Shown: positions 7,090-64,000 of the stretch, one piece after another
How the letters are laid out: every line of letters begins with the position of its first letter
How positions within the stretch are numbered: the first letter of the stretch is position 1
Source: Polyangium spumosum
GTDB taxonomy: Bacteria > Myxococcota_A > Polyangia > Polyangiales > Polyangiaceae
Reading direction: 5' to 3'
DNA length: 64,000 nucleotides
Assembly (NCBI RefSeq): GCF_009649845.1
Contig: NZ_WJIE01000004.1
Span: forward strand, 248,001-312,000
The notes under the pieces: model-generated
What the model saw: the letters and a program-made list of their open reading frames with translations, nothing else
Databases searched by the model: none
What the model was told of the DNA's origin: nothing
Program-made: the position numbers and the translations under genes

Positions 7090-7149
7090 TCGACCGTGAT
7101 GGCCGGATCCCTTGGCGCCCGTGTGGAAAGCGACTACGCGGAAGGTTCA

Positions 7150-11566: not shown

Positions 11567-12478
11567 ATGCGATTCTTCCCGAAGACGCTCGCCGTGACGA
11601 TCGCGGCAACTTGGCTGCTCGCGGCGCCGGCCGGGGCCCAGGCGCCCACGGCGCCGCCGCCGTCGATGGCCCCGGGCGCGCCCCGCGCCGTACCGTCGGG
11701 CCAAACCCCACCACCCGCCGCGCCCACGCAGCCGGGCATGCAGCCGCCGCCGATGCAGCAGCCGCCGGTGCAGCAGCAGCAGCCGATGCAGCCGGGCATG
11801 CAGCCTCAGCCTCCGACGCAGCCCGGCATGCAACCCGCGCCGCCGCCGGCCGTCCCCGGCGCGCAGCCGGCCCCCGGGGCGCAGCCCGCGCCGCCGCCTG
11901 GCATGGATGGCCAGACGTACGCCGTACGCCTGCGTGATCTCGAGCAACGCATCGACGAGCTCAAGGAGCAGATCCGCCGCAGCCACACGCGGCTCTCGTT
12001 GCTCAGCGACACGATCCTCTCGAGCGGCGGCGCCGGCTCCCGCGCGAACCTCAAGTACACGAACGAGCTCTCGGGCGCCTTCAAGATCACGCGGCTGCTC
12101 GTCGTGCTCGACGGCGCGGTCCAGTACAACAAGACCGATCAGACGGGCGCGATCGCCGAGGCCGGCGAGATCCCCATCTTCAACGGCTCGATCCCGCCGG
12201 GGGATCACACGGTGCAGGTCCTCGTGAACCTGCAGGGCAACGGCTTCGGCGTCTTCTCGTACATGCGCGGCTACAGGCTCGAGGTCCGCTCGAACCACTC
12301 GTTCACCGCGCTCGAGGGCAAGACGATGACGCTGCAGATCGTCTCGTTCGAGAAGGGCGGCGTGACCACGCCGATCGAGGAGCGCCCCGCGGTGCGGTTC
12401 GTCGAGAAGGTCACGCAAGGGCTCTCGGATCCGAACGCGCCCGCGGGCGCGCCGGGGCCGCAGGGCGTCGCCAAGTGA
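11567..12478 (+). CDS. Exported Pro/Gln-rich protein with C-terminal beta domain
   Basis: 303 aa from the ATG at 11567 (GGGG ten bases upstream); an in-frame ATG at 11552 is the alternative. A signal peptide ending AGAQA is followed by ~75 residues of Pro, Gln, Met and Gly with repeated QPGMQP units. Next come a short coiled coil (about 120-150) and a compact C-terminal domain of mostly beta character (VVLDGAVQYNK, IPPGDHTVQVLVNLQG). I do not recognise the family. It is the first gene of the plus-strand run and lies 22 bp before the first TPR gene, so it is probably a periplasmic partner of those proteins. Confidence 0.85.
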   Translation: MRFFPKTLAVTIAATWLLAAPAGAQAPTAPPPSMAPGAPRAVPSGQTPPPAAPTQPGMQPPPMQQPPVQQQQPMQPGMQPQPPTQPGMQPAPPPAVPGAQPAPGAQPAPPPGMDGQTYAVRLRDLEQRIDELKEQIRRSHTRLSLLSDTILSSGGAGSRANLKYTNELSGAFKITRLLVVLDGAVQYNKTDQTGAIAEAGEIPIFNGSIPPGDHTVQVLVNLQGNGFGVFSYMRGYRLEVRSNHSFTALEGKTMTLQIVSFEKGGVTTPIEERPAVRFVEKVTQGLSDPNAPAGAPGPQGVAK

Positions 12479-12500
12479 GCGAGCGCCGGAAGGGGCACGC

Positions 12501-14909
12501 ATGAAGAGCACAGGCGGTTCCCGCGTGCGAAAGGCGCTCCTCGCGGGGCTCCTCTCGGCCGCTCTCGCCCTCGCGCCGGGCCTCGCCCACGCGCTCGACG
12601 CCGAGCAGGCGATCACGAGCGCGTCGCAGCAGATCGGCATCGCCGGAAACGGCCTGCGCGCGATCGAGGACGCGATCCAGAAGTCGAAGGGCCGCGAGCG
12701 CACGCCCGCGCAGCGTATCGCCGACGCCATGCTCCTCATGGGCTCGAGGGACTGGGAGCGCGCGGCCACGCTGCTGAACGAGATCCTCGAGAAGTACCCC
12801 GATCACCCCACGGCGTACCCCGACGCGCTCTCGCTGCTCGGCGAGACCTACTTCCAGTCGCGGCAGTACCTCTCGGCGCGCCGCGTCTACTTCAAGATCA
12901 CCGATCGAAACCAGGAGCCGCGTTTCCTCTCGTACCAGAGCAAGGCGCTCGAGCGGCTCGTGGACATCGCGCTGCGGACGAAGGACTACCGGCACCTCGA
13001 CGACGTCTTCGCGGCGATGAACCGCCTGCCGCCCGCGGCGATGACGAGCGGGATCTCGTACGCGCGGGGAAAAGGCCTCGTCGTGAAGAAGGACTGGGCC
13101 GGCGCGAAGGCGGCGCTCGGGGCGGTCGATCCGAAGAGCGCGTACGCGCATCAAGCGGGCTACCTGCTCGGCGTCGTGGCGATGAAGGAGGCGACGCCGC
13201 CGCCCGTCCCGCTCGCCGAGGGCGAGGTGCCGCCGCGGGCGCCGCGGAGCCGTTACGTCGCGGCGATCGAGCAGTTCCGCAAGGTCACGCAGCTCCCGCC
13301 GGATTCGAAGGATCACGAGCGGGTGATCGACATGGCCTGGCTCGCGATCGGGCGGCTCTTCTACGAGTCGGATCAGTGGGCGCAGGCCGTGGACGCGTAC
13401 AACCACATCGATCGCGCCTCGCCGGAGTTCGGGACGATGCTCTACGAGCTCGGCTGGGTGTACGTCCGGCTCGGCGACGTCGAGCGCGCGCAGCGGGCCC
13501 TCGAGGTCCTCTCCGTCGCGGACCCGAACAGCCAGGACATCGCCGACGGCTCGCTCCTGCGCGCCGACCTGATGTTACGCGCGGGCCAGTTCGAAAAATC
13601 GCTCAAGGTCTACGAGGGCGTGCGCGCGAACTACGATCCGATGCGGGCGCGCGTGGACGCCTTCCTCGGCGCGACGAGTGATCCGGCGGTCTATTACGAC
13701 AAACTCAGCGAGGAGCAGCTCGACGTCCTCGACGCGAGCTCGGGCCTGCCGACGCTCGCGATCCAGTGGGCGCGCGAGGCGGAGGACGGCCCGGCCGCGT
13801 TCGCCGTGATCGAGGGCATCTCGCAGTGCCGCACGCTCATCCAGCAGTCGAACGACGTCATCGAGAAGCTGAACGCGGTGATCTCCTCGACGAACCGCGT
13901 CCGCGCGTTCCCCGAGCTCAAGGCGGGCGAGGAGAAGGCGCTCGGGCTCATCAACCGCGTGGGCATCGCGCGGCTCGCGCTCGGACAGGGCATGGACGAG
14001 GTCGAGTCGTCGGCGCTCTCCGGCGAGATCGGGCAGGTGCGCGCGCGGCGTCGCTCGCTCGAGAAGCGGCTCGGCATCATCCCCGTCAACGACGCGGATT
14101 TCCAGGAGCGCGAGGGGCAGGCGCTGCGGCAGTGGAACGGCGCGTCGCAGGCCGTGCAGCGGATGACGCTCGAGGTGGACTCGCTCCAGGCGCAGGTGAA
14201 CGGCCTGCGTCGCATGATTCGCGAGGCGCCGCAGGTGGGCGTCGTGCGGGATCCGGCGTCCGTCGCGCGGTTCGAGCAGGAGCTCGCCGCGCACGAGCGT
14301 GATCTCGCGGCGTACCGCAAGCAGATCGCGAACCTGCGCAAGTGGGTGGGCGCGGGCAAGATGCAGGTCGGCTTCGGGGATCAGCGCTTCATCGAGGACG
14401 GGCAGGTGCGGCAGGCCTACCGCGAGGCGATCGTGCGGGAGGTCCAGCTCGCGATGGCGGGGCAGGGGGGCGCGGAGCTCGCGACGTACGCGAGGCGCAT
14501 CGCGCCGCTCCTGCAGAAAGGCGACGAGACGGACGCGAAGGTCTTCGCCGCGCTGAGTGATCTCGAGCGGGAGGTCGCGCGGCGGACGACGGACGTGCGG
14601 GCGATCCTGGCGCGCGAGACGGCCGCCGTGGTCGGCTACGAGGTCGAGCTCGAGCGGCTGGACAAGGAGGCGCGCGGGGTCGTGGGCGAGGTGGCCATGC
14701 GGAACTTCGGCCTCGTGCGAGATCGGCTGCGGAGCATCGTCTTGCGGGCCGACGTGGGCATCACTGAAGAGGCGTGGGAGGTGCGCGAGGAGCAGATGAC
14801 CCGCGTGCGGAGCCTGCGCGTCGAGCGCGCGCGCGAGGAGAGGCTCTTGCGCGAGGAGCTCGACGAGGTCCTCGACGACAGCGGCCCGACCGAGGCGGAG
14901 GGCAAATGA
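12501..14909 (+). CDS. Exported TPR protein with C-terminal coiled coil
   Basis: 802 aa. A signal peptide (cleavage near AHA, residue ~29) is followed by TPR-like helices to about residue 330. These include a canonical unit W-E-RAATLLNEILEKYPDHP and later ALEVLSVADPNS and DLMLRAGQFEKSLKVYEGV. From ~430 to the end the protein is heptad-rich and strongly charged, so a long coiled coil is likely. A GGAAGGGG site precedes the ATG. The stop codon overlaps the next ATG (ATGA at 14906-14909). Large exported TPR proteins of this kind act as periplasmic scaffolds; that role is inferred from context. Confidence 0.85.
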   Translation: MKSTGGSRVRKALLAGLLSAALALAPGLAHALDAEQAITSASQQIGIAGNGLRAIEDAIQKSKGRERTPAQRIADAMLLMGSRDWERAATLLNEILEKYPDHPTAYPDALSLLGETYFQSRQYLSARRVYFKITDRNQEPRFLSYQSKALERLVDIALRTKDYRHLDDVFAAMNRLPPAAMTSGISYARGKGLVVKKDWAGAKAALGAVDPKSAYAHQAGYLLGVVAMKEATPPPVPLAEGEVPPRAPRSRYVAAIEQFRKVTQLPPDSKDHERVIDMAWLAIGRLFYESDQWAQAVDAYNHIDRASPEFGTMLYELGWVYVRLGDVERAQRALEVLSVADPNSQDIADGSLLRADLMLRAGQFEKSLKVYEGVRANYDPMRARVDAFLGATSDPAVYYDKLSEEQLDVLDASSGLPTLAIQWAREAEDGPAAFAVIEGISQCRTLIQQSNDVIEKLNAVISSTNRVRAFPELKAGEEKALGLINRVGIARLALGQGMDEVESSALSGEIGQVRARRRSLEKRLGIIPVNDADFQEREGQALRQWNGASQAVQRMTLEVDSLQAQVNGLRRMIREAPQVGVVRDPASVARFEQELAAHERDLAAYRKQIANLRKWVGAGKMQVGFGDQRFIEDGQVRQAYREAIVREVQLAMAGQGGAELATYARRIAPLLQKGDETDAKVFAALSDLEREVARRTTDVRAILARETAAVVGYEVELERLDKEARGVVGEVAMRNFGLVRDRLRSIVLRADVGITEEAWEVREEQMTRVRSLRVERAREERLLREELDEVLDDSGPTEAEGK

Positions 14910-17900
14910 GCGTGCTTCGTCGATCCTCCTCGCGATCGGGGCGCGGCGCGTCGTCGATCCTCGCGCTCCTCGTGGCGACGTGCGTCGCGGGCAACGCCGC
15001 GTCGCAGCAGCCGCAGCCCGCTGCGCCTCAGCCCGCTGCGCCTCCTCCCGCTGCGCCTCCGACCGCGACTCCTCCCGCTGCTGCGCCTGCGACTGCGGCT
15101 CCGGTGACGTCCACGAGCGCGCCTCCCATCCCGCCGCCCACGCCTGCGTTCAAGCCGAAGGCGCACGCGCCACCGCCGCCGCCTCCCACGCCCGAGCAGA
15201 TGGCGGTCCTCGCCGAGCTCGAGAAGGAGGCCGCGACGTACGAGAAGGCCGCGCGCGACTACCGCTCGTCGATCACGCGCATCATCCAGCAGCACTACGA
15301 GCAACGTCGCCTCCGCGTCATCGCCGCGCTCGACCGCGAGATCGACATCGAGCACCGGGACCTCAAGAAGGCGCGCGAGGAGGCGATCCGCCGCCTCGAG
15401 AAGTTCGTCGATACGTACAGCGGCCGGAACGCGCACCCCGAGAGCACGCCCACGGCGATGTTCCGCCTCGCGGCGCTCTACGAGGAGCGCGCCCGCGAAG
15501 ACAGCGACCTGTCCGACGATCTCGCGATCGGCCTCCGGCCCGCGATCGCGCTCTACAAGCGCATCATCCGCGAGTTCCCGAGCTACAAGGAGCTCGCCGG
15601 CGTCTACTACTACCTCGGCCACGCCCTGAACGACTCGGCGCGGATCTTCGAGGCCCAGCAGGTCTTCCGGTCGCTCGTCTGCCACGACGGCTACCCGTAC
15701 CCCGTTCCTACGGATCCGAAGGATCCGACGCGGGATCTGGTCGGCAAGCTCCCGCAGGATCACGATCGCGACTACTGGATTGCCTGGGAGTCGCGACACC
15801 CGATCCCCATCGGCGAGGCCACGAAGCGCAAGGCCGCGGAGCCGCCGAAGAAGGGCAAGCCCAGGGGCAAAGGCAAGGCGACCGAGCCCGAGCCGGAGGC
15901 GCCCGCGATCGAGGACGAGCTCGTCTTCGTCAACCCGTACCCGGATGGCTGCAAGCCCATCCCGCAGAAGGTCGTGGAGGGCGCGGAGCCGCGGTACCTC
16001 GCCGAGGTCTGGTGGCTCATCGGCGACTACCACTTCAACGAGGTCGATCCGGGCGGCGGTCCCTTCACCTTGAACCGCGCCGAGGTCGCGTACGCGCGAT
16101 CGCTCCAGTACAAGAAGCCGCCCGTCTACGGCGTCGCGATGTACAAGCTCGCCTGGACGTACTTCAAGCAGCTCCGCTACGAGACGAGCGTCCGGCAGTT
16201 CGTGAAGCTGCTCGACTACACCGACGAGCAGGAGAAGCTCACGGGTGATCCGGGCACGGATTTCCGCGGCGAGGCGTACACGTACATGGCCGGCGCGCTC
16301 ACGTTCCTCGACTTCACGGGGCCGGCCGCCGACGAGCCCTTCGTCCCGCGCAGCGACATCCTCGACCTCGAGCAGGACCCGCGGATCCGCGAGCAGAAGA
16401 TGCGCATCGCGATCGACCGCGTGCAAAACGCCTCGCTGATCCCCCAGGATCGCAAGTGGACCGTGGACGTCTACAAGGCGCTCGCGGCCGAGTTCAAGGA
16501 GCTCAACCAGTACCGGAACACCGTCGAGGTCTCCGAGCTCATCCTCAAGAAGTGGCCCATGCACCGCGACGCGCCGGTCATGCAGGCGCAGATCGCGGAC
16601 ATCTACGACACGCTCGCCGGGCAGTCGCGCGAGGGCACGGCCGAGCGCGCCGAGAACTCGGCGAAGGCCCTCGAGGCGCGCACGAAGCTCGCGAACTACG
16701 TCGGCAAGACGCCGTGGGTCGAGGCGAACAAGGACGATCCGGAGGCCATCCAGACCGCCGAGCGCCTCGTGCGCGGTGGCCTCCGGCGCGCGGCGGCCGA
16801 TCACACGAACAGGGGCAGCGCGCTCGTGAACGCCGCGATCCAGAGCGGCGAGCAGGAGACGCGCACGAAGCTCTTCGAGCGCGCGCTCTCGGAGTACCGC
16901 ATGGCGGCGCTCGGCTGGCAGGGCGTGCTGCAGGAGGACGAGAACGCCCCCGACGCCTACGACAGCCGCTACTGGCTCGCCGACGCGAACCACATGGTCG
17001 TCGTGATCCAGGTGGCGATGGATCGCTCGCCGACGGCCGAGGAGATCGAGACCGCGCGGCGCACCGCCGTCGACGTACGCGACTCGAACGAGGACGACAA
17101 ACACCTCCAGCCGGCGGCGTTCATGGTCGTCGACACCGCGTACCAGGCGCTGCTCGACCAGTACAAGCTGCACAAGCGCAGCGGCGGTCAGCAGGGGATC
17201 GAGCAACGCACGGGGCTCCAGATCGTCACGGAGAACGACAAGCCGAAGGTCGTCGCCGAGGAGCTGCCGAAGGTCGTCAAGGACGCGGTCGCGGCGCGCG
17301 ACGAGTACATCCAGCGCGTGCCTCCGTCTGCGGATCTCTCGACGCGTGATCCGCAGACGAACCAGGACCAGAAGAACAGCGATCTCTACGCCTACCAGTC
17401 GGCCGAGTTCTTCTTCCTCTACGGCAACTTCGCCGAGGCGCGGCGCAGGCTCGAGCCGATCTACGCCGAGCAGTGCGGCAAGACGCCGTTCGGCTACCTC
17501 GCGTGGGAGAAGCTCACGACGATGGCGAACCTCGAGAACGACGTGCCGCGGTCCCGCGCGCTCGCCGAGGCCGCGATGACGAAGAGCTGCGCCGTGAGCG
17601 AGGAGCAGAAGCTCAAGGAGACGGACATCGCCCAGCCCACGATTTCGCGCGGCTACTACGTCGACGCCGCGGCGAAGTTCGAGAAGGCCGAGAAGATGCC
17701 CGACGGCCCCGAGCGCGTGCAGGCGTGGCGCGAGGCGGCGGCGCTCTACCGCGTGGCGCTGGAGAAGGCCCCGGCGCGGGACGAGGCGCCCGAGGCCGCG
17801 ATGAACGGCGCGTACTGCTACAAGCAGGTCGGCGACTACGACCAGGCCATCGAGATGTACACGCTCTTCATCAAGGAGTACGGGAGCGAGGCGAACCTCT

Positions 17901-19219
17901 CGAAGCTGGAGAAGGGCGACGAGGCTGCGAAGCCGCCGAAGCCGGCGGATCCGAAGCGTTACGGCGAGCGCGTGAAGTACCTGAAGCAGGCCTACGACGC
18001 GCTCAGCGCCGCGTACGTCCTCTTCTTCAACTACCGCGCCGCGGCCGAGACGTACGACACGATCTCGCGCAACGTTCGCTTCGAGAAGCCCGCGCGGCGC
18101 GAGGCGGCCCGGGCTGCCGTGTTGCTCTACGCGAACGTCGGCGAGCGGGATCGGATGATCGCCTCGCGGAGCGCGTTCCTCGGCCTCGACGCCCCGATCG
18201 AGCAGAAGGTCGAGATCGACTACATCGTCGCGTCGGCCGACCTCAAGACCTGGGACGAGAAGGGCCTCGACGAGGGCGCGAACAAGGCCGCGCGGGTCAA
18301 GGCCATGGACGCGATGGAGGACTACTACGAGATGAACCGCCTCACGCCGGCGGCCACCCCGTACCTCGTGCAGGCGGCCTACCACGCATCGAAGATGCGC
18401 AAGGCGGGAAGCGATCCGAAGGCGTTCGAGTGGTGCCGCAACACCATCAGCGCCTTCGACAAGTTCAAGGCGTTCGCCGCCGTCGACGGCAAGAAGGCGC
18501 TCGGCACGGCGCAGGCCGACATGGCCGCCGAGTGCGCCTACGGCACCATCAACGACCGGCTGAAGCAGTCCTGGGACTACGAGACCGGCCACCACCGCTA
18601 TGCAGGCGTCATCGACAAGGTCGTCAAGACGTTCGCCGACGAGCTCAAGAAGGCGGGTGACACGCACTTCAACGACCTGCAGTCCGTGATCAAGACGTAC
18701 GAGTCGCGCGCCTTGTCCGTCGCGGCCTTCGCGCGCCAGGGATCGCTCTACGACGCGTGCCGCACGGGCCTCTACTACACCGCGCCTCCGGCTCTGAAGC
18801 TCTACAATGAAAAAGAGGAGCGGCTCATCAAGCTCGCCGAGACGAGCGACCGCGAGGATCTGCAAGAGGTCGCCGACGGTTATCGCCAGAGGCGCCGCGA
18901 GCAGTGGCGCGAGGCGCGCGAGCGGCTCCTCAACGACGCCGATCGCGTCATGATCAAGTTCTACGTGCAGGCCGTCGTCTACGCGCGGGCCTGGAACGTA
19001 CGAAACCCGGAGGTCGACCACGCGATCCAGAGGCTCGCGTTCTTCACGGACATCCTCGGCGACGCGAAGATCCGCGACATGAGCCAGGGGATCATCGATC
19101 CCGAGACGGGGCAGCCGTTCCAGTACGCGGACGGCATGTTCCTGCGCACGCGGCCCGGCATGGCGCCCGCGCTCGAGCCCGACGGCCTGCCCGCCCCGCT
19201 CCCGGTGAGCCTGCCATGA
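14906..19219 (+). CDS. Very large exported TPR protein, GltD/AgmU-like
   Basis: 1437 aa, started at the ATG overlapping the previous stop. A signal peptide precedes a low-complexity Pro/Ala tract (residues ~33-90, with a repeated PQPAAP unit). The rest is almost entirely helical TPR-type repeats: for example RLAALYEERAR, LAGVYYYLGHALNDSARIFEAQQVFR, MYKLAWTYFKQLRYE and NGAYCYKQVGDYDQAIEMYTLFIKE (quoted in parts). An insertion near 310 is Lys/Pro/Gly-rich. Position before a TPR lipoprotein and an AgmX-type protein matches GltD (AgmU) of the Myxococcus gliding complex, a periplasmic TPR scaffold. Orthology is inferred from order and architecture, not alignment. Confidence 0.85.
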   Translation: MSVLRRSSSRSGRGASSILALLVATCVAGNAASQQPQPAAPQPAAPPPAAPPTATPPAAAPATAAPVTSTSAPPIPPPTPAFKPKAHAPPPPPPTPEQMAVLAELEKEAATYEKAARDYRSSITRIIQQHYEQRRLRVIAALDREIDIEHRDLKKAREEAIRRLEKFVDTYSGRNAHPESTPTAMFRLAALYEERAREDSDLSDDLAIGLRPAIALYKRIIREFPSYKELAGVYYYLGHALNDSARIFEAQQVFRSLVCHDGYPYPVPTDPKDPTRDLVGKLPQDHDRDYWIAWESRHPIPIGEATKRKAAEPPKKGKPRGKGKATEPEPEAPAIEDELVFVNPYPDGCKPIPQKVVEGAEPRYLAEVWWLIGDYHFNEVDPGGGPFTLNRAEVAYARSLQYKKPPVYGVAMYKLAWTYFKQLRYETSVRQFVKLLDYTDEQEKLTGDPGTDFRGEAYTYMAGALTFLDFTGPAADEPFVPRSDILDLEQDPRIREQKMRIAIDRVQNASLIPQDRKWTVDVYKALAAEFKELNQYRNTVEVSELILKKWPMHRDAPVMQAQIADIYDTLAGQSREGTAERAENSAKALEARTKLANYVGKTPWVEANKDDPEAIQTAERLVRGGLRRAAADHTNRGSALVNAAIQSGEQETRTKLFERALSEYRMAALGWQGVLQEDENAPDAYDSRYWLADANHMVVVIQVAMDRSPTAEEIETARRTAVDVRDSNEDDKHLQPAAFMVVDTAYQALLDQYKLHKRSGGQQGIEQRTGLQIVTENDKPKVVAEELPKVVKDAVAARDEYIQRVPPSADLSTRDPQTNQDQKNSDLYAYQSAEFFFLYGNFAEARRRLEPIYAEQCGKTPFGYLAWEKLTTMANLENDVPRSRALAEAAMTKSCAVSEEQKLKETDIAQPTISRGYYVDAAAKFEKAEKMPDGPERVQAWREAAALYRVALEKAPARDEAPEAAMNGAYCYKQVGDYDQAIEMYTLFIKEYGSEANLSKLEKGDEAAKPPKPADPKRYGERVKYLKQAYDALSAAYVLFFNYRAAAETYDTISRNVRFEKPARREAARAAVLLYANVGERDRMIASRSAFLGLDAPIEQKVEIDYIVASADLKTWDEKGLDEGANKAARVKAMDAMEDYYEMNRLTPAATPYLVQAAYHASKMRKAGSDPKAFEWCRNTISAFDKFKAFAAVDGKKALGTAQADMAAECAYGTINDRLKQSWDYETGHHRYAGVIDKVVKTFADELKKAGDTHFNDLQSVIKTYESRALSVAAFARQGSLYDACRTGLYYTAPPALKLYNEKEERLIKLAETSDREDLQEVADGYRQRRREQWREARERLLNDADRVMIKFYVQAVVYARAWNVRNPEVDHAIQRLAFFTDILGDAKIRDMSQGIIDPETGQPFQYADGMFLRTRPGMAPALEPDGLPAPLPVSLP

Positions 19220-20859
19220 CGCGAGTCGTTCGTTTTCATCCGGCCCTCTTCGCGCTCACCTGCGCGCTCGTGCCGCTCGCCCTCGCCGCCTGCGAGGAGA
19301 CGACCTCGCAGCAGAAGCCGCAGACGCCGCCGCAACCCTCGGCCGCGTATCCGTACCCCTACCCGAACGGGATGAACTCGTGGGGCCAGCCGATGGGTCA
19401 GCCCGCGCCGATCGTGGGCATGAGCCCGACGCCGAGCCTCCCGCAGAGCGCGCCGCCGCCCGTCACGGCCGTGCCGCCTGCCCCTCCGCCGCAGGCCCTC
19501 CCGCCTGCCGCGACCGGGCCGTATCAGCAAGGCATGGCCGCGTTCGCCGCGGGGGACCTCAGCGCCGCGAAGGGGCTCTTCCAGCAGGTCATCCAGGCCG
19601 ACGCGCGCGCGCACCACGCTCACTACTCGCTCGGCGCCGTGCAGGAGCGCCTGCGCGAGCCCGAGGCTGCGTCGAGCTACCAGAAGGCCCTCTCCATCAC
19701 GCCCGACTACGAGCCTGCGATCATCGCCTACGCGATGCTCCTCGCGCGGCAGGGCAAGCTCGGCGAGGCCGAGAAGCTCCTCACGGAGAAGCGCGCGATC
19801 ATGCCGCGATCGGCCGCGGTCACGGCCACGCTCGCCGAGGTGAAGAGCCTGCAGAAGGACACCGGATCGGCGCAACGCCTCGCCCAGGAGGCGCTCAAGA
19901 TCAACCCGGACTACCGGCCTGCGATGGTCGTGATCGCCCGCGACCACTACCGCAACCGCAGGCTCGATCTCGCCCTCTACGCGCTGCAGGCGATCCTCGA
20001 CGGGTTCGGCGCGGACAACCCTCCACGCGACAAGGAGAACCCCGAGGCGCTCCTCTTGCGTGGCCTCATCCTGCGCGAGCAATCAGAGCGCGCCGGCGCC
20101 ATGGACAACTTCCGCCGCGCCGTGCAGCGGAGGCCCGATCTCGTCGAGGCGCGCGTGCAGCTCGCCGCCATGCTCCTCGAGGCCGGCAACGGCCAGGACG
20201 CGCTCCCGCTCCTCGAGGGCGCGGTCAAGTTCGACAGCGACAACCTCCCCGCGCACCTCGCGCTTGGTGACACGTATCGCCTGCTCGGCCGTTATGGCGA
20301 CGCGAAGCGCGAGTTCGAGTGGGTGCTCGCGCGGGACGCCTCGATGCCGCAGGTCCACTACGATCTCAGCCTGCTTTACCTCTTCGCGCCGAGCGTCCCT
20401 GGCATGACGGCCAAGCAGCAGGTCGCCGAGGCGATCAGCGAGCTCAAGAAGTACCAGGAGCTCCGCCGCAAGGGCGTACGTGACGACTCCGACGAGCTCC
20501 TCCAGCGCGCGAAGCTCAAGGAGGGCGAGCTCGCCGCCGCCGCCGCTGCCGCCGTCGAGGCCCCTGCGCCCGTGGCGACGCTCCCGAGCCCGCCCAGCGC
20601 CGAGGATGCCGGTGCTCCGGACGCCGCCGCGCCCGCGCCGAGCCCGCCGCCTGCGACGCCGCCGAGCACGCCGCCCACGACCTCCGCGGCCCCGCCGCCC
20701 GCGCCTGCGCCTTCGGACAGCTCCGCGGCGCCCGCGCCTCCACCCGCGCCTCCGCCCACGGACTCCGCCGCGCCGCCGCCCGCGCCCGCGCCTGCGCCTG
20801 CGCCCACGCCGACGAGCTCCATCGTCGTGCCCTTCTCCGCGCCGCCCCCGGGCCTCTAG
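19216..20859 (+). CDS. TPR lipoprotein, GltE/AglT-like
   Basis: 547 aa, with the ATG overlapping the upstream stop as ATGA. The signal peptide ends in lipobox LAAC with Cys26, so it is a lipoprotein, probably of the outer membrane. A Pro-rich linker (to ~95) leads into at least eight TPRs (GMAAFAAGDLSAAKGLFQQVI, HYSLGAVQERL, ALSITPDYEP and so on) to ~420. The last ~110 residues are an Ala/Pro/Ser tract. In Myxococcus, AglT/GltE is the TPR outer-membrane lipoprotein encoded directly after AgmU/GltD; the same order is seen here. Function is inferred from that parallel. Confidence 0.85.
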   Translation: MTRVVRFHPALFALTCALVPLALAACEETTSQQKPQTPPQPSAAYPYPYPNGMNSWGQPMGQPAPIVGMSPTPSLPQSAPPPVTAVPPAPPPQALPPAATGPYQQGMAAFAAGDLSAAKGLFQQVIQADARAHHAHYSLGAVQERLREPEAASSYQKALSITPDYEPAIIAYAMLLARQGKLGEAEKLLTEKRAIMPRSAAVTATLAEVKSLQKDTGSAQRLAQEALKINPDYRPAMVVIARDHYRNRRLDLALYALQAILDGFGADNPPRDKENPEALLLRGLILREQSERAGAMDNFRRAVQRRPDLVEARVQLAAMLLEAGNGQDALPLLEGAVKFDSDNLPAHLALGDTYRLLGRYGDAKREFEWVLARDASMPQVHYDLSLLYLFAPSVPGMTAKQQVAEAISELKKYQELRRKGVRDDSDELLQRAKLKEGELAAAAAAAVEAPAPVATLPSPPSAEDAGAPDAAAPAPSPPPATPPSTPPTTSAAPPPAPAPSDSSAAPAPPPAPPPTDSAAPPPAPAPAPAPTPTSSIVVPFSAPPPGL

Positions 20860-20912
20860 GGACATGGACGGCGCGCGTCGGACGAGGCATCTTGGAGCAC
20901 GGAGGCGCGCCC

Positions 20913-21164
20913 ATGCGTAGAGCGATGCTGATCCTCGTCGGGCTCGTGGTCCTCGGTTCGTCCGTACGAACCGCGGAGGCTCAGGAGAAGGACAAGAAAC
21001 CTCGCGGCGCGATCACGCTCTCGGAGGTCACGATCACCGGCCGCATCGAGAAGCCGATCGCCGCCGTCGACGTGAGCCGCATCCAGCCGAAGCTCACCCT
21101 CGCCGAGCTCCGGCAGCCCTTCCTCGATCGCATCGAGGAGGCCATCTTCAAGGATCCTTTCTGA
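20913..21164 (+). CDS. Small exported protein, GltF-position
   Basis: 83 aa. ATG at 20913 with GGAGG ten bases upstream. A clear signal peptide (to AEAQ, residue ~24) is followed by a single ~55-residue unit with ITLSEVTITGRIEKP and an acidic/aromatic end EEAIFKDPF. I recall similar short proteins next to AgmX/PglI-type genes in other deltaproteobacteria, but cannot align them here. Its position between the TPR lipoprotein and the AgmX-domain protein corresponds to gltF in the Myxococcus cluster. Confidence 0.75.
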   Translation: MRRAMLILVGLVVLGSSVRTAEAQEKDKKPRGAITLSEVTITGRIEKPIAAVDVSRIQPKLTLAELRQPFLDRIEEAIFKDPF

Positions 21165-21186
21165 TCCAACGATCTCCCCGAGGCGC

Positions 21187-21768
21187 TTGATCCTCGCGCT
21201 CGGCGCCCTGCTCACCCTCGCCTCCGTGCTGCTCGCGTGGTCGCACCTCGCGCGCGTGCGGCGGGCGACCTCCGGAAAGACCGCCGAGCTCGTCGTCGCG
21301 CTGAAGCGCCTCCCCGCGAGCGAGCGCGCCGCGGCCCTCGCCACGCGTGCGCCCGAAGGCAGCGCCGAGCGCCGCCTCGCCGCGCTGATCCAGCCGACCG
21401 ACGAGGCCACAGGCGAAGCCCGCAGCGCCGCCGTCGACGAGCTGCTCGCCGAGATCGAACGCGCGCTCGAGGCGAGCGCCTCCTGGCCCGGCGCCGCGAC
21501 GCGCATCGCGGCTCATGGAGGCCTGCTCCTCGCGGTGATCACCGTCCTCGTTCGCCCCGGCTCCATCTCGTTCGTCGCGCCTGCGCTCCTCGTCCTCGGC
21601 CTCGGCGGCGCGGCCACCTGCGCGGCCCTCGGGCGCCGCGCGCGTGAGCTCGCCGAGGCGCAACGCAAGGCCGTGGACGCGCTCGTCGACGCCCTCGGCT
21701 TGCGCGAGCCGCTCGCCCCGGGCGCTTTGCCGAGGGCGCCTCGTCCGGGCCGAAGGCGCGGCGTTTGA
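21187..21768 (+). CDS. Small integral membrane protein, unknown
   Basis: 193 aa from a TTG start at 21187 with CCGAGG four bases upstream; no ATG or GTG fits. One hydrophobic helix is at the N-terminus, then a ~90-residue charged helical segment, then one or two helices around 110-150, and a basic tail. The layout (helix, cytoplasmic loop, helix pair) faintly recalls ExbB/MotA-type proteins, but no signature residues are visible, so I make no such call. It lies 22 bp after the small exported gene and ~100 bp before the AgmX-type gene. Confidence 0.7.
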   Translation: MILALGALLTLASVLLAWSHLARVRRATSGKTAELVVALKRLPASERAAALATRAPEGSAERRLAALIQPTDEATGEARSAAVDELLAEIERALEASASWPGAATRIAAHGGLLLAVITVLVRPGSISFVAPALLVLGLGGAATCAALGRRARELAEAQRKAVDALVDALGLREPLAPGALPRAPRPGRRRGV

Positions 21769-21812
21769 GCCGCGGGCTTTACCGATCTGGCGGCCTTGTG
21801 TACGCTTCCCTT

Positions 21813-21840
21813 GAAACTTCCGTGTCGGCTGGGCGTCTTC
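21813..21840 (+). promoter_or_regulatory. Candidate ECF-type promoter before the AgmX-domain gene
   Basis: GAAACTT (21813-21819), a 15-bp spacer and GTCTTC (21835-21840), placed about 25 bp before the ATG at 21866. Same geometry as the site upstream of the sigma gene at 11267-11295. Confidence 0.4.
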
Positions 21841-21865
21841 AGCGCTCCAGGCGGAGGCCCTTTTC

Positions 21866-23296
21866 ATGACGCAGACGACGACGCAGACGGGGTCCGGGAC
21901 GAAGCCCGGTCAGATGACCGCGGTCATGCGGGCCATGAACCAGGCGCCGGGACCGAAGGTCCTGCGCGTCGGGGTCGTCCTCGGCGGCAAGGTGATCGAG
22001 GAGCGCATCATCAAGCAGCGCACCCACGTCACCATCGGCCCCAGCGAAAAGAGCATGTTCGTCACGCCGAACAAGAACGTGCCGCCGAGCTTCCGGCTCT
22101 TCGAACTGGTCGGCGACGAGTACGCGCTGAACTTCCTCGAAGGCATGAGCGGTCGCGTCGCGCTGAAGACCGGCGTGACCGACCTCGCCTCGCTGAAATC
22201 GCAGGCCAAGAAGGTCTCGTTCGGCAACACGCAGGCGTTCCAGGTGCCGCTCAGCGACGACGCGCGCGGCAAGATCGTCGTCGGTGACACGACCTTCCTC
22301 TTCCAGTTCGTCGCGGCGCCGCCGCCTCAGCCGAAGCCGCAGCTCCCCGCGTCGGTGCGCGGCGGGTTCGTCCAGTCGATCGACTGGACCACCACGATCA
22401 TCGCGGCCTTCTCGTTCCTCCTGCACTTCGGCGCGGTCGGCACGATTTACTCGGACTGGATGGATCCGCTCGTCAACGACGAGGTCGACGTCGCGCAGAT
22501 CCTCGAGAGCGTGCGTAGCCTGCCTCCTCCGCCGCCGGTCGAGCAGCCGAAGGAGACGGACACGACGCCCACGCAGGCCTCGACCGCGCAGGCCGAGGCG
22601 CCCAAGCCTTCGGCGGGCGCGTCTGCAGCGAAGGGCGCGGGGGGCGGCAAGATCAGCGACGCGCGCGCCTCGGCGATCGCCAACGAGCTCGCGCAGCTCG
22701 ACATGCAGATGCTCGGCGCCCTGAACGCCTCGGGCAACGCGACGGCCGGCGTCCTCGATCGTGGCGACGTCCCGCTCGGCCTGCTCGACAACGCGGCGGC
22801 CTCGGGCGCGGGCGCGGGGCTCGGCGGCATCGCGGGCCTGAACCTCGGCGCGGCGGGCGGCGGGACGGTCCGGCCCGGCGCGGCGGGCGGCGGCGGGCTC
22901 GCGAGTATCGGCGACACGCAGGCCGCCACGGCGGCGAGCGCGCAGGGCGCGGTGAAGACGGTCAAGGGCCCGACGGGCAGCGCGAACGTCGGCGGCGCGG
23001 CGGTCTCGGGTGGCAACGTCGCGAACGCCTCGTCCGTCGTGGCCGGCATGGCCGCGGGCTTCCGCCGTTGTTACAACCGCGGCCTGCAGAGCGACCCGAC
23101 GATGAAGGGCTCGGTGCGCATCACCGCGAAGATCGGCCCGAACGGCGAGGTCCTCTCCGCGTCGCCCTCGGGCGGCGGCGGCCTCTCGGGCGAGGTCATC
23201 TCCTGCGTCGTGGCGCGCGTGCAGAGCGCGCAGTTCGCGCCTCCCGAGGGTGGCGGCGCGACCGTCGTCATCCCCGTCTCGTTCGTCAGCCAGTGA
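21866..23296 (+). CDS. One-pass protein with FHA-like N-terminus and AgmX/PglI C-terminal domain (GltG-like)
   Basis: 476 aa, with GGAGG nine bases before the ATG. Residues ~35-150 look like an FHA or FHA-derived beta domain (THVTIGPSEKSMF, FRLFELVGDEYALNF). A TM helix follows near 172-192, then Pro-rich and Gly/Ala-rich periplasmic linkers. The last ~85 residues form the AgmX/PglI (TonB-like) C-terminal domain: GFRRCYNRGLQSDP, VRITAKIGPNGEV and SCVVARVQSAQFAPP, with paired Cys. In Myxococcus, GltG (PglI) has this plan and spans the periplasm to connect the inner-membrane motor with outer-membrane partners. The matching motor genes are not in the window. Confidence 0.88.
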   Translation: MTQTTTQTGSGTKPGQMTAVMRAMNQAPGPKVLRVGVVLGGKVIEERIIKQRTHVTIGPSEKSMFVTPNKNVPPSFRLFELVGDEYALNFLEGMSGRVALKTGVTDLASLKSQAKKVSFGNTQAFQVPLSDDARGKIVVGDTTFLFQFVAAPPPQPKPQLPASVRGGFVQSIDWTTTIIAAFSFLLHFGAVGTIYSDWMDPLVNDEVDVAQILESVRSLPPPPPVEQPKETDTTPTQASTAQAEAPKPSAGASAAKGAGGGKISDARASAIANELAQLDMQMLGALNASGNATAGVLDRGDVPLGLLDNAAASGAGAGLGGIAGLNLGAAGGGTVRPGAAGGGGLASIGDTQAATAASAQGAVKTVKGPTGSANVGGAAVSGGNVANASSVVAGMAAGFRRCYNRGLQSDPTMKGSVRITAKIGPNGEVLSASPSGGGGLSGEVISCVVARVQSAQFAPPEGGGATVVIPVSFVSQ

Positions 23297-23433
23297 TCGA
23301 TCGCCTCGATCCTGCGGCTCCTGTCCGGGGCGCGTGAATGTCCGTGCCCCGCGGCGCAACGAACCCCCCGAGAGACCCTCCACGCCGGCCGTAAAAACGG
23401 CGGGATTTCCCGGGGTTTCTCCGCCTGCCCGCG

Positions 23434-23463
23434 TTGACAGGTGCGCTCGCCCGCTTCTATAGT
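23434..23463 (+). promoter_or_regulatory. Strong sigma70-like promoter
   Basis: TTGACA (23434-23439), an 18-bp spacer and TATAGT (23458-23463), 30 bp before the ATG at 23493. This is the best consensus match in the window. It separates the exported coiled-coil/barrel/export group from the AgmX-type operon. Confidence 0.7.
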
Positions 23464-23492
23464 GACCCCGTCTGGCCCTTCGGAGGACTTCG

Positions 23493-24071
23493 ATGCAGCG
23501 AGAACGGATGCTCGGCTTCGGCGCGCTTTGCGCGCTTTCGCTGTTCGTGGCGGCCGGCATCGCGTCTGCACAGGCGCAAGGCGCGCCTCCGCCGCCGCCC
23601 GACACGAACGCGGGCCTTCAGCGTCAGGTCACGCTCACGCCTGCGCAGCAGCTCCAGGAGACGGACACCTACCTCGCGCGGATGGAGAGCGCGCGCAGCG
23701 TCGTGCGTCGCCTGCTCGAGGAGGCGCGATCGCAGCGCGACGTGGTGAAGACGCTCTGCCTGAACGACAAACTCAACCAGATCGACGTGACGCTGCGCAG
23801 CGCGCGAGAGCGTCGGCAGTCGCTCGATCTCGCGGTGAAGCGTGACGACGCGGAGATGTCGTCCCACGAGTTCACGATCCTCGGCGTCCTGCGGCAGCGC
23901 GTCGAGCAGCTCACGGCCGAGGCGAACCAGTGCATCGGGAAAGACGCCGACATCCTCGGCGAGACGTCGACGGTCACGCAGATCGATCCTGGCATCCCCG
24001 ACGATCCTGCGTTTTTCCCGCCTCCCATCATCATCCAGGAGCCCGCGCCCTCCGCGAGCGTGATCAAGTGA
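23493..24071 (+). CDS. Small exported coiled-coil protein
   Basis: 192 aa; CGGAGG lies seven bases before the ATG. A signal peptide ends near ASAQA, followed by a short Pro-rich stretch. Then comes a long amphipathic helix region (about 48-155: ARMESARSVVRRLLEEAR, RRQSLDLAVKRD) and a Pro-rich tail. Two Cys (near 90 and 150) could form a disulfide. No family recognised. It opens a three-gene group with a beta-barrel and a polysaccharide export lipoprotein. Confidence 0.8.
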   Translation: MQRERMLGFGALCALSLFVAAGIASAQAQGAPPPPPDTNAGLQRQVTLTPAQQLQETDTYLARMESARSVVRRLLEEARSQRDVVKTLCLNDKLNQIDVTLRSARERRQSLDLAVKRDDAEMSSHEFTILGVLRQRVEQLTAEANQCIGKDADILGETSTVTQIDPGIPDDPAFFPPPIIIQEPAPSASVIK

Positions 24072-24108
24072 CGCGTTCGGTAGGTCCGTCGGAGCATCGC
24101 CCGATCCC

Positions 24109-25500
24109 ATGAAGAAGCGTGGTCTGCTGATCGCGGCGCTCTCTCTGACGAGCCTCGCGCCTGCCACGGCGTTCGGTCAGGACCAACCCTGGCTCTCCGA
24201 TCGTCGCTTCACGGTGGGCCCGGGGTACCGCGTCGGCGACTACGAGCTACACCCGGGCGTCGCGCTCGAGTTCGGCTACGACTCGAACTTCTTTTTGCGC
24301 GCGAGTGAAGGTGACGCGCCTGGTGATCCCGTGGGCGCGATGCGCCTGCGCGTCACGCCGTCGTTCTCGTTCTCGACGCTCGGCCCGCAGCGCCGGGCCG
24401 GCGGCGGCGCCTCGCAGGCCGCGCCCACGGCGGAGTTCTCGGGCGGTTTGTCCGTCACCTACAACGAGTTCTTCCCGGTCTCCGGCCCGCAGGAGGGCAA
24501 GGATCGGATGTGGCAGCAGCGCAACGTCAGCGGCCTCTTCGACGTGCGCCTCAACATCCTGCCCACGCGCCCCTGGTCGGGCGTGCTCTATGCGAGCGTC
24601 GGGCGCCTCATCCAGGCCACGCAAGAGGGCGTGATCCGCGACGACGCCCCGAACGATAGTTACAACCGCTTCACGCCGAACGCTGGCGCCGAGCTCGTGT
24701 GGAACCCGAACGGCGGCCTTCTCGACTGGCGCCTCGGCTACAACTTCGCCGGCACCGTCTTCGAGTCGAACCGCTTCGGCGGCCTGACGAACATCCACCA
24801 CACCTTCCAGACGCGGGGCCGCTGGCGCTTCCTGCCGCGCTCGGCGCTCCTCTACGACGCGCGCGTCGGCATCATCCACTACCTCGATCCGAGCGAGAAG
24901 ACGGGCTCGACGCCGCTCCGCGTGCAGATCGGCTACAACGGCCTCATCACGAAGAACTTCGGCGCGTTGATCATGGCGGGCTGGGGCGCGAGCTTCTACG
25001 ACCCGTCCGCCAGCGAGACCGAAGAGACCGTTCAGGATTTCGACAGCCTCATCGGCCAGGCCGAGATCCGTTACTTCCTCACGCCGAACCCGAGCACCGA
25101 TCCGCAGGCCGCGAGCACCACGCTCTCGTCGGTCTCGCTCGGCTTCACGCGCGACTTCCATGACGCGTACGTCGGCTCGTACTTCGAGCGTGATCGCGGG
25201 TACCTGAAGCTCACGTATTTCTTCGGCGGCCGCTTCGTCGTGATCGTCGACGCCGGCGTCGGCGCCCTCGTGAACCCGGCGATCAACACGCCGAGCCTCC
25301 AGGAGAACCCCTGGACCGACATCCGCGTCGACGCCGCGGGCTTCGCCGAGTACCGCTTCAAGGACGCGTTCGGCATCAACACGACGCTGCGCTACAACAC
25401 GCGCATCAGCGACAACTCCTTCACCATCCCCGGCATCGGCGAGGACAAGCTCCAGTGGCAGCAGTTCGAGGCCTACCTGGGCGCCCGCTGGCTCATGTGA
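24109..25500 (+). CDS. Outer-membrane beta-barrel protein
   Basis: 463 aa. Signal peptide to AFGQ (residue ~25). The mature chain has alternating hydrophobic/aromatic strands with Tyr, Phe and Trp girdles (ALEFGYDSNFFLR, DWRLGYNFAGTVFESNRF, YFFGGRFVVIVDAG, FEAYLGARW) and short polar turns. This is typical of surface barrels found beside Wza-like genes in myxobacterial polysaccharide loci. The next gene starts within its stop codon (TGATG). An equivalent of GltH, the barrel of the gliding complex, is possible because of the nearby Glt-like genes, but cannot be shown here. Confidence 0.85.
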   Translation: MKKRGLLIAALSLTSLAPATAFGQDQPWLSDRRFTVGPGYRVGDYELHPGVALEFGYDSNFFLRASEGDAPGDPVGAMRLRVTPSFSFSTLGPQRRAGGGASQAAPTAEFSGGLSVTYNEFFPVSGPQEGKDRMWQQRNVSGLFDVRLNILPTRPWSGVLYASVGRLIQATQEGVIRDDAPNDSYNRFTPNAGAELVWNPNGGLLDWRLGYNFAGTVFESNRFGGLTNIHHTFQTRGRWRFLPRSALLYDARVGIIHYLDPSEKTGSTPLRVQIGYNGLITKNFGALIMAGWGASFYDPSASETEETVQDFDSLIGQAEIRYFLTPNPSTDPQAASTTLSSVSLGFTRDFHDAYVGSYFERDRGYLKLTYFFGGRFVVIVDAGVGALVNPAINTPSLQENPWTDIRVDAAGFAEYRFKDAFGINTTLRYNTRISDNSFTIPGIGEDKLQWQQFEAYLGARWLM

Positions 25501-26084
25501 TGCGGAGGCGCGACCTCCTCGCGACGCTCGCGTTCCTGCTCGTCGCCTGTGGCGGACGCCCGCGCCCCGTGGATCTCCCGGCCCCCGTGAGCAACGCGAC
25601 CGTGGGCGTGGGCGACGTCTTCGAGATGCGCATCGTGCGCGAGGACAACCTGCCCACGATGTTCACGGTCGCGCCCGACGGCACGGTCGATCTGCCCTAC
25701 ATCAAGCGCGTCAAGGTCGCGGGCCTCGAGCCGCAGCAGATCGCGGAGATCGTCCGCAAGCGGCTGGTCGAAGCAGAGATCCTGACCGACCCGATCGTGA
25801 GCGTGAGCATCAAGGAGTACAACTCCAAGCGCGTCGAGGTGCTCGGCGAGGTGCAGCGCTCGGGCTCCTTGCGCTTCGAGTCCGGCATGACGCTCCTCCG
25901 CGCGATCTCGCTCGCCGGCGGCTTCAACCAGATGGCCGCGCGTGACAAGGTCACGATCCGCCGTCAGGTCGGCGACAAGACGCGCGCCGTCACGGTGAGC
26001 GTCGAGGACATCATCGACAACGCGATCCCCGACGTCCCGCTCCAGGCAGGCGACTCGATCAACATCCCGCAGCGTGTGTGGTAG
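25500..26084 (+). CDS. Wza-like polysaccharide export lipoprotein
   Basis: 194 aa from the ATG sharing its A with the previous TGA. The lipobox LVAC places Cys at 17. A Poly_export domain (GVGDVFEMRIVREDNLPTMF, APDGTVDLPYIKRVKVAGL) and one SLBB domain (KRVEVLGEVQRSGSLRF, LLRAISLAGGF, LQAGDSINIPQ) fill the rest. This is the minimal architecture of outer-membrane polysaccharide export proteins. Wza proper is longer, with further domains. No Wzc-like co-polymerase or Wzx/Wzy gene is near, so it would need partners elsewhere. Convergent with the PPC gene across a strong hairpin. Confidence 0.92.
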   Translation: MRRRDLLATLAFLLVACGGRPRPVDLPAPVSNATVGVGDVFEMRIVREDNLPTMFTVAPDGTVDLPYIKRVKVAGLEPQQIAEIVRKRLVEAEILTDPIVSVSIKEYNSKRVEVLGEVQRSGSLRFESGMTLLRAISLAGGFNQMAARDKVTIRRQVGDKTRAVTVSVEDIIDNAIPDVPLQAGDSINIPQRVW

Positions 26085-63339: not shown

Positions 63340-63901
63340 CAGATCGTGCTCCTTGGGCCGGGGCGCCCCTGCTCCATGCGGGGCGCGCGAGCGCGACGCG
63401 CCGCCCGCGTCCACGTCGCGGACTCAGCGAACGACGCCAGCAGCGTGGACGCTAATCGAAGGGGAGACGGACCGTCAACCTCTCGATGCACGCCGTGATG
63501 GACTGCCGCCGGTTTTCGACGGACGGCCGCCGGTCGGCGCCCCGGGGGGGTCGGTCCGGGTGGACCCGCGATCGAGCCGAGAGCCCGAGAGTCCCTTGGC
63601 GGGTCGAAGGCGAGCCCCAAGGCACTCCCTGGAGAGGTGTCGGAAGCAGCACCAGGACTCGTGCTGCTTCAAAACCCGCCGCTTGACAAGCCAACCGTCA
63701 TAATTTTACCATCCGCGGCCAGACGTAAGTATCCGCTGATTCTCATTGAAGTTTTTGGTCATCGCTCCCGGTACACGACACGCGGGGAGCCGCGACTGCG
63801 AAGGGCCCCGTCCACTGCGGATCAAGCAGCTAACGAACGGTATCTGGGCCGGTTCGGGTCGCCTTCATCGACCTCAACCTCCGAACGACGAGGAACGACG
63901 A
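63340..63901. other. Large divergent intergenic region, partly AT-richer
   Basis: 562 bp between two start codons pointing apart. It holds a promoter-like pair at 63449-63478 facing left and an AT-rich stretch (63675-63760) with TTGACA at 63683-63688 but no proper -10. Short frames inside are shadows. Confidence 0.55.
63449..63478 (-). promoter_or_regulatory. Possible promoter of the Cys-rich lipoprotein gene
   Basis: TTGACG (63478-63473), 18-bp spacer, TAGCGT (63454-63449); leader about 100 bases. Confidence 0.4.
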
Positions 63902-64000
63902 ATGCGGAAAGGGCTGGCTACTCTCTGTCTTCTTGCTTCTGCCATGCTCGTGGCGCCGACCGCCTGGGCCCAAAAGGGCCCGGCGCCGACGGCGAAGGCT
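63902..64000 (+). CDS. Start of an exported protein, 3' truncated
   Basis: Only 33 codons lie in the window. The ATG at 63902 follows GAGGAACGACGA. A basic start (MRKG), a hydrophobic core and a cleavage site AWAQK form a clean signal peptide, then an Ala/Pro/Lys-rich mature start. The protein continues past the window edge; identity unknown. Confidence 0.75.
   Translation, partial: MRKGLATLCLLASAMLVAPTAWAQKGPAPTAKA

Follow-up and report, generated by a model that had tools for sequence, protein, structure and literature searches.

A Glt-type envelope gene block joined to a short OPX/beta-barrel pair in Polyangium spumosum, with a putative pseudo-stator in the slot of its motor

What is the role of a Glt-like set of envelope proteins that is encoded apart from both the canonical glt cluster and the motor genes of its own genome? 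The question is raised by a gene block of Polyangium spumosum located in a stretch of 64,000 nucleotides, which was analysed at full length and is called the window here (contig NZ_WJIE01000004.1, abbreviated C4, positions 248001-312000, within a 10.76-Mb genome; L, G and C numbers are our labels for loci, genomes and contigs). The initial annotation, made from the letters of the sequence, described positions 12501-23296 as a Glt-like trans-envelope module without a motor, ancestral or repurposed rather than devoted to gliding. The gene set proved incomplete: a gene between F and G (21187-21768) had been missed, and the unit comprises ten genes of the + strand running from 11567 to 26084, named 0, C, D, E, F, X, G, H, I and J. 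The open reading frames (ORFs) are co-directional, as had been described, with inter-gene gaps of -4 to 196 bp; the 4-bp overlaps occur only at C/D and D/E. ORFs 12501-14909, 14906-19219, 19216-20859, 20913-21164 and 21866-23296 show coding-type GC content at third codon positions on the + strand, and the signal peptides and the lipobox of 19216 were identified by eye from the sequence. The features are as follows (TPR, tetratricopeptide repeat; TM, transmembrane segment; OPX, outer-membrane polysaccharide export).

11567..12478, +, gene 0: exported protein, Pro-rich linker followed by a highly conserved C-terminal domain, no Pfam family
12501..14909, +, gene C: GltC-like exported TPR protein (NF033756 and hhalign)
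14906..19219, +, gene D: GltD-like large exported protein with weak TPR (hhalign and pairwise match)
19216..20859, +, gene E: GltE-like TPR lipoprotein (NF033758 and hhalign)
20913..21164, +, gene F: small exported protein in the gltF position, the basis being position only
21187..21768, +, gene X: 193 aa, TTG start, three-TM protein of predicted ExbB/TolQ fold lacking the ion-path threonines (putative pseudo-stator), at the place where loci of other families have an embedded AglRQS motor
21866..23296, +, gene G: GltG-like protein with an N-terminal domain, one TM, a Pro-rich/Gly-rich part and an AgmX/PglI (TonB-like) C-terminus
23493..24071, +, gene H: small exported protein, syntenic, no function assigned
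24109..25500, +, gene I: 18-stranded outer-membrane beta-barrel (structure model), Wzp-type position
25500..26084, +, gene J: short OPX lipoprotein of 194 aa, Poly_export and SLBB (Pfam)
63746..64000, +, start of the canonical glt cluster (gltC), continuing past the end of the window

The answer that we favour, with moderate confidence, is that the block encodes a Glt-type machine serving the secretion of a Wzx/Wzy polysaccharide of the BPS (biosurfactant polysaccharide) type, the motor genes of which were relocated and left a pseudo-stator in their place. On this reading, for which the function is inferred, a polysaccharide secretion block includes its own Glt-type machine, with a displaced motor and a putative pseudo-stator.

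The Glt character of the block was addressed by building two sets of profiles, one for the module proteins and one for the Glt proteins encoded in 16 canonical loci within the window's order, and comparing both sets by hhalign. Six canonical profiles were used, GltC to GltG and the ORF after gltG, which is labelled cH by position only, behaves as a TPR protein and may not be GltH. Linked homologues of the core Agl/Glt proteins GltC, D, E and G were recovered at probabilities of 99.6-99.9 and E-values of 4e-24 to 4.7e-33: C matches GltC (99.6, E 4e-24, 329 columns), D matches GltD (99.9, E 4.7e-33, 906 columns; 27% pairwise identity over 87 aa with canonical GltD, E 8e-4), E matches GltE (99.9, E 9.9e-33) and G matches GltG (99.9, E 2e-31), the last alignment starting at canonical GltG position 248 and leaving the N-terminal FHA part uncovered. 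Cross-matches among TPR proteins were weaker than these (E against the ORF after gltG, 99.2; C against GltD, 96; C against that ORF, 95). On this profile evidence, the Glt homology of C, D, E and G appears solid. The initial annotation had named the lack of a GltD, GltE or GltG match for 14906, 19216 and 21866 as the outcome that would count against a Glt-like, repurposed envelope machine, and the matches just given support that description instead. It was mistaken in leaving 12501 without a clear equivalent and in listing gltC, with gltA and gltB, as absent, given that 12501 is GltC-like. Its FHA-like, membrane-spanning, AgmX-type protein at 21866 holds for the C-terminus, an AgmX/PglI domain (NF033768, 51 bits, above the curated cut-off of 40), and fails for the FHA part, as the Pfam FHA domain was not found in 21866.

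No such support was obtained for two other proteins. F against the canonical GltF profile was not significant (probability 1.9, E 0.025), so the assignment of 20913 as GltF, for which position is the sole basis, was not retained. Gene 0 matches none of the six canonical profiles, as had been anticipated for 11567, and was rejected as a canonical Glt protein within that comparison, which left GltA, B and K profiles outside its scope. It is a highly conserved family of its own, with 62% mean column identity in a 24-row alignment, and is present in 200 of 284 sampled Myxococcota genomes, mostly as a single copy.

The distance between these proteins and those of the gliding machinery is marked. 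Scores against the curated NCBIfam models lie far below the equivalog cut-offs for C (NF033756, GltC: 59 bits, E 3e-16, cut-off 450), E (NF033758, GltE: 90 bits, cut-off 225) and G (NF033760, GltG: 73.5 bits, cut-off 650); no GltD model occurs among the NCBIfam matches of 14906, and the other Glt models gave only weak GltJ matches to the block (E 0.0054 and 0.9). A genome search for aglRQS and glt genes, as the initial annotation had proposed, returned two AglRQS-type sets on another contig, and a canonical glt cluster about 40 kb downstream of the block, from window position 63746 (C4:311746) onward (L009, L010). The latter consists of gltC to gltG, gltC immediately preceding gltD, and of two more TPR-like ORFs, one of which is very large (>3000 aa) and by eye resembles GltI/AgmK. 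The homology to GltC, D, E and G could also be read as a sign of a second gliding machine, or of a part of the gliding one; this is very improbable, considering the nearby canonical cluster, the scores far below the curated Glt cut-offs, the association with an OPX/barrel pair, and the normal motility reported for a mutant of the gltD homologue in cluster G4 of Myxococcus xanthus (PMC3169522).

As a separate observation, the genome encodes another GltG at a distant site (L012:19-2055, C1:1382919-1384952), with 90% identity to canonical GltG and with no other glt gene recognised by eye in the flanking stretches; counterparts of 91-92% identity occur in the five other genomes of the genus.

The genes at the downstream end of the block connect it to polysaccharide export. 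J matches PF02563 (Poly_export) with 60.5 bits and carries SLBB; the only other domain is DUF7109 at E 0.19, and no Wza C-terminal domain was found. The structure model of I contains 18 long strands (mean pLDDT, the predicted local distance difference test score, 74.5), and its best structural matches include the AlgE, OprD/Occ and PgaA barrels. A short OPX protein and an adjacent 18-stranded barrel, the latter by model, are therefore both present, the combination reported as the composite translocon for exopolysaccharide (EPS), the major spore coat polysaccharide (MASC/SPS) and BPS in M. xanthus (PMC9603273, PMC9601211). The pairs EpsY/EpsX, ExoA/ExoB and WzaB/WzpB resemble the window's genes in that a short OPX lipoprotein stands beside an 18-stranded barrel; unlike them, the window's pair is preceded by a Glt-type transducer in the same co-directional block.

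The block is strongly syntenic within the order and patchier beyond it. The order sample combined 20 neighbourhoods, all from relatives, with the named loci of a contig scan (the best 80 of 131 relatives), with taxa such as Polyangium, Sorangium, Minicystis, Labilithrix, Sandaracinaceae and others; a wider sample added 20 loci that belong to other families in the class and the phylum (phylum loci). Across the window's order the arrangement 0-C-D-E-F-X-G-H-I-J is kept as far as each stretch reaches. Barrel I is found in 58 of 59 order loci with at least 1.5 kb after G (missing in L069), OPX gene J in 13 of 14 with at least 3.5 kb after G (missing in L071), and X is absent from L071, L072, L080 and L126. 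I without J was seen in two of the phylum loci (L262, L263).

The nature of the polymer was approached through the genes that follow the module in relatives, in 11 fetched stretches and within 6 kb after J; Pfam was applied to chosen ORFs of five of them (L314, L317, L319, L320, L323), and gene calling yielded few genes in L322 and none in L316 or L321. A kinase-fused Wzc occurs in three of the 11 (L314, L320, L323), accompanied by genes for Wzy and/or a nucleotide-sugar dehydrogenase, the Wzc gene of L314 being on the strand opposite to the module; L317 and L319 have a nucleotide-sugar dehydrogenase near the start of the stretch. In M. xanthus, the Wzc of the BPS pathway is reported to be kinase-fused and those of the EPS and MASC pathways are not (Islam et al., PMC7310880). 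WzcB is this kinase-fused Wzc, WzaB mutants show BPS-pathway phenotypes, and WzaB is described as unlinked from the BPS cluster in M. xanthus and contiguous with it in Sandaracinus (PMC7310880). From the gene content of three relatives and this literature, a BPS-type polymer is most likely what the machine exports.

If the block is a Glt-type machine, where is its motor? None of the six MotA/ExbB matches of the genome falls in the window, so that "without a motor" holds for the locus. It does not hold for the lineage: the same operon carries a motor in other families, and a related motor is encoded unlinked in this genome. Among the phylum loci, after setting aside L256 and L259, where no G was found, the slot between F and G contains MotA/ExbB and two ExbD genes in 11 of 18 (the first ExbD of L251 recognised by eye), a very divergent ExbB-like ORF in one (L263) and none of these in six. 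In the order, 68 of 74 readable slots contain an X-type ORF instead of a motor. For this count, the gap ORF with most predicted TM segments was taken as X, a choice biased towards membrane proteins; 70 ORFs were picked from the 74 loci, two 491-aa misfits (L086, L087) were dropped, and 58 distinct sequences remained after removal of identical copies.

The model of the window's X (mean pLDDT 87.9) gave ExbB and TolQ as best Foldseek matches (best E 8.5e-3, probability 1.00), and in VIA the top 15 rows were all ExbB or TolQ (Z 12.9 to 11.0), the best covering 174 of 193 aa. X is thus assigned to the ExbB/TolQ fold with the reservation that applies to helical bundles in general, considered below. 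In sequence, PF01618 does not match the window's X and matches two of 17 orthologues (best E 1.2e-4); an AglR-type hidden Markov model matches eight of 68 X proteins at E<=3e-4, the window's not among them, and the X of G028 was found by motA2 in a whole-genome search (E 3.8e-7). At the sequence level, kinship with ExbB appears only in the less degenerate members. Two threonines in TM2 and TM3, which we take to be equivalents of ExbB T148 and T181 in the ion path, are present in 82 of 82 AglR-type motors, in 1/58 (TM2) and in 0/58 (TM3) distinct X proteins. With these threonines lost, X is best read as a non-conducting remnant: it shares predicted fold and topology with the ExbB/TolQ/MotA stators, from which it differs in that neither ion-path threonine is present and the locus offers no ExbD partner. 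A motor subunit that stayed in position once its ion path was gone would be an unusual fossil.

The ExbB-like protein that still marks the motor slot makes the motorless condition look derived, and the suggestion that the locus is ancestral was not supported. An ancestral motorless state was rejected along with a gliding machine, on account of the canonical glt cluster nearby and of the related operons with a motor in the X slot. The same data bear on a third possibility, a motorless, static trans-envelope scaffold that would position the OPX/barrel translocon, with X as a structural element and no ion flow. The missing threonines (57/58 and 58/58), the lack of an ExbD gene beside X in the window and the X-type ORF in 68/74 order slots are all consistent with it; we nevertheless consider it improbable, since other families keep a full motor in the same slot (11/18) and 26 of the 29 order genomes with the module keep a related motor.

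Outside the order, L263 (genome G037) is an independent case of a threonine-less, ExbB-like slot protein: it is very divergent and has Val and Ala at the two positions. It is followed by a single-TM ORF, maybe a decayed ExbD, and a motor belonging to the clade described next is encoded elsewhere in that genome (L293).

The two AglRQS-type sets of the window's genome are divergent operons at C2:179-185 kb, the ExbB-type proteins of which are named motA1 and motA2. The motA2 motor (C2:182.8-184.7 kb) is unlinked to the module and consists of a MotA_ExbB protein (PF01618, 87.7 bits) and two ORFs with FLD and MLD in a TM, regarded as ExbD-like with a TM aspartate by eye, not by Pfam. The best-sampled ExbB tree (87 rows) places ten embedded motors, 18 motA2 proteins of the order and seven unlinked motors in one clade (support 98/93), which the eleventh embedded motor joins at 93/92, and the motA1 rows form a separate clade (100/99). 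This tree and one that includes X rows exclude L182 and L183, which are not Agl-type, as well as the divergent G037 slot protein, and rows nearly identical to others were thinned. Among the seven unlinked members, one is from G061, a genome without gene 0; the genomes of the other six have no complete embedded motor (G184, G106, G097, G265, G089, and G037 with its divergent slot protein). A further 15 unlinked ExbB rows from ten genomes with an embedded motor, chosen from the next-best whole-genome matches and not exhaustive, all lie outside the clade. Of 30 order genomes, including the window's, 26 combine the module with motA2, three possess the module alone (two of them 80-83% complete; G028 is 99% complete) and one, G009, has neither. 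G110, of the same genus as G009, also lacks both; the two keep motA1, and G009 keeps canonical GltG. As the genomes lacking both belong to one genus, the co-occurrence within the order is statistically weak. Overall, the pairing of the module with a motA2-type motor is well supported, though not absolute.

A different source of force would be the gliding motor itself. The module might borrow the motA1-type AglRQS as the Nfs system does, motA2 serving another job and the polymer being moved along the surface after export. There is precedent, as Nfs is reported to use the gliding AglRQS and to dispense with the second motor MXAN_3003-5 (PMC3858216), and G129 and G028 have the module with no motA2-type motor found. 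We regard this as unlikely, since motA1 lies outside the clade that unites embedded and motA2 motors (98/93) and both sampled genomes of the module-less genus are also without motA2, yet keep motA1.

Some further features of these motors were observed. In the 26 order genomes with motA2, the two AglRQS-type operons are direct neighbours in divergent orientation, and in the window's genome the motA1 side has an extra 343-aa gene (L023, C2:176000-189000). In the three embedded motors examined (L245, L248, L251) the TM aspartate is present in the second ExbD and replaced by Asn in the first; both ExbD-like proteins of the displaced motor in the window's genome carry Asp (by eye). Tandem AglR-type genes occur side by side in three phylum genomes (L270, L286 and L288, in G265, G061 and G089).

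How the parts might work together can be outlined as follows. The GltG-like protein (21866) would span the inner membrane and couple to the proton-driven, motA2-type AglRQS; the C-, D- and E-like proteins with F would carry force or contact across the periplasm to the outer membrane; the OPX lipoprotein (25500) together with the 18-stranded barrel (24109) would form the exit for the polymer, and the target of the force would be either this pore or the emerging polymer. The motor genes would formerly have stood between the F and G genes, as in other families, and would in this lineage have moved beside the gliding-type motor (C2:182.8-184.7 kb), leaving X, possibly kept as a docking ring, which is a guess. 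This scheme is built on the homologies, the synteny with its exceptions, the modelled barrel and ExbB-like folds, the absence of the ion-path threonines and the placement of the motor in the tree; from these we infer the physical coupling, the direction of force, the identity of the polymer and whether the motor drives export or handles polymer already exported. A broader version can be put forward only tentatively: a phylum-wide secretion machine for a released polysaccharide, with a proton motor and a built-in Glt transducer, the motor helping to push or pull the chain through periplasm or pore, from which the motor genes departed in one order and a dead stator ring was kept to dock GltG.

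Comparison with known systems places the block between several of them. With the Agl-Glt gliding machinery of M. xanthus (Luciano 2011, PMC3169522) it shares the GltC/D/E/G homologues and an AglRQS-type motor; it differs in the addition of gene 0, H, an outer-membrane barrel and an OPX protein, and in having its motor unlinked and a putative pseudo-stator in the motor slot. With the Agl-Nfs spore-coat machinery (Wartel 2013, PMC3858216) it shares a Glt paralogue acting on a polysaccharide exported in Wza-type manner; there, the exo export locus and the nfs genes are described as distinct loci and the motor is the one used in gliding, whereas here a single gene block encodes both translocon and transducer and has its own motor lineage. 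AglRQS proton conduction is reported as necessary for motility and sporulation, and AglR contacts GltG and NfsG while MXAN_3003 does not (PMC3858216). The second motor, MXAN_3003-5 or cluster M2, is described as dispensable for motility and sporulation (PMC3169522, PMC3858216); it is a second AglRQS set with no known partner and a candidate counterpart of motA2, by description, not by sequence. The gltD homologue of cluster G4 is MXAN_1922, and the function of the cluster is given as unknown (PMC3169522). WzaB (MXAN_1915) adjoins the barrel MXAN_1916 (PMC9603273). By locus-tag numbers, G4 adjoins WzpB/WzaB (MXAN_1916/1915) in a manner that fits the window's arrangement, and the module is probably the counterpart of G4. 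No statement tying G4 or M2 to BPS or the OPX pair was found in the literature covered, subscription papers and supplementary figures being outside the search. If the favoured reading is right, orphan parts of M. xanthus, the most thoroughly studied of the gliding bacteria, would acquire a testable job as a BPS-type polysaccharide machine, namely G4 and, provided that it belongs to the motA2 type, the motor of M2; polymer secretion or release would join motility and spore-coat wrapping among the uses of Agl-Glt. A linkage of the module to mglBA, suggested by the numbering of MXAN_1925/1926 (MglA/MglB, PMC4316618) near G4, was abandoned, as no mglBA was recognised by eye upstream of gene 0 in the 20 phylum loci.

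A number of observations weigh against a motor-driven polysaccharide machine as set out here. As regards export, no PCP (polysaccharide co-polymerase), Wzx or Wzy genes were seen beside the window's own module. Of the 20 phylum loci, some of which end early, 14 yielded I and 11 yielded J; in L252 and L257 none of H, I and J is present within about 5 kb after G, and L255 has 3.6 kb between the barrel and the OPX gene. Set beside the counts within the order, these figures make the barrel and OPX genes members of the unit in the window's order; the same holds for many other lineages, though not for all. Agl mutants are reported still to export slime and Exo polymer (PMC3858216), so related machines act after export; for this reason an action on the polymer after export is favoured over assistance in export. 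The correspondence with G4 is drawn from locus-tag order (MXAN_1922 just above MXAN_1916/1915), not from sequence.

As regards the motor, a first ExbB tree gave lower support for the grouping of embedded and motA2 motors (84/86), the tree with X rows did not resolve it, and the group, which as named omitted nested rows, was rejected there by a one-clade test (p 0.0005). Exceptions to the pairing occur in both directions: for G129, which has the module, no motor of either the embedded or the motA2 type was found; in G028, where X is among the most motor-like (48.6 bits), the module occurs but both motA2 and the barrel gene are missing; and G061 has a motA2-type motor and no gene 0. As regards X, there were no Foldseek matches at E<=0.001, an unrelated helical protein (Z 11.0 over 115 aa) ties with the 15th ExbB/TolQ row, and helical bundles can reach Z 13 by chance. 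The threonine loss depends on a distant alignment: with a tolerance of one column, Thr is present in 11/58 and 4/58 X proteins (mean over columns 6.2), at both sites in 0/58. Three of the eight most motor-like X proteins have the TM3 threonine one place off, and the tree with X rows, affected by long branches, did not settle where X belongs.

Other genes were noted around the block. Upstream of gene 0, on the opposite strand, a zf-HC2 anti-sigma-like protein with TPR is encoded (window 9496-10545, -); a query from this region, its frame partly wrong, scores in 55 of 101 loci. A sigma factor candidate at 10571-11139 was in the wrong frame, had no Pfam match and was not used. In eight of the 20 phylum loci (L244-L247, L254-L256, L259) the gene before the module is obgE-like, six of these with rplU and/or rpmA in front (by eye). 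Near the block of the window lie a PilZ (cyclic di-GMP binding) gene (7096-7632) and two genes for PMT_2-type mannosyltransferase-like proteins (4519-7089 and 29727-31157).

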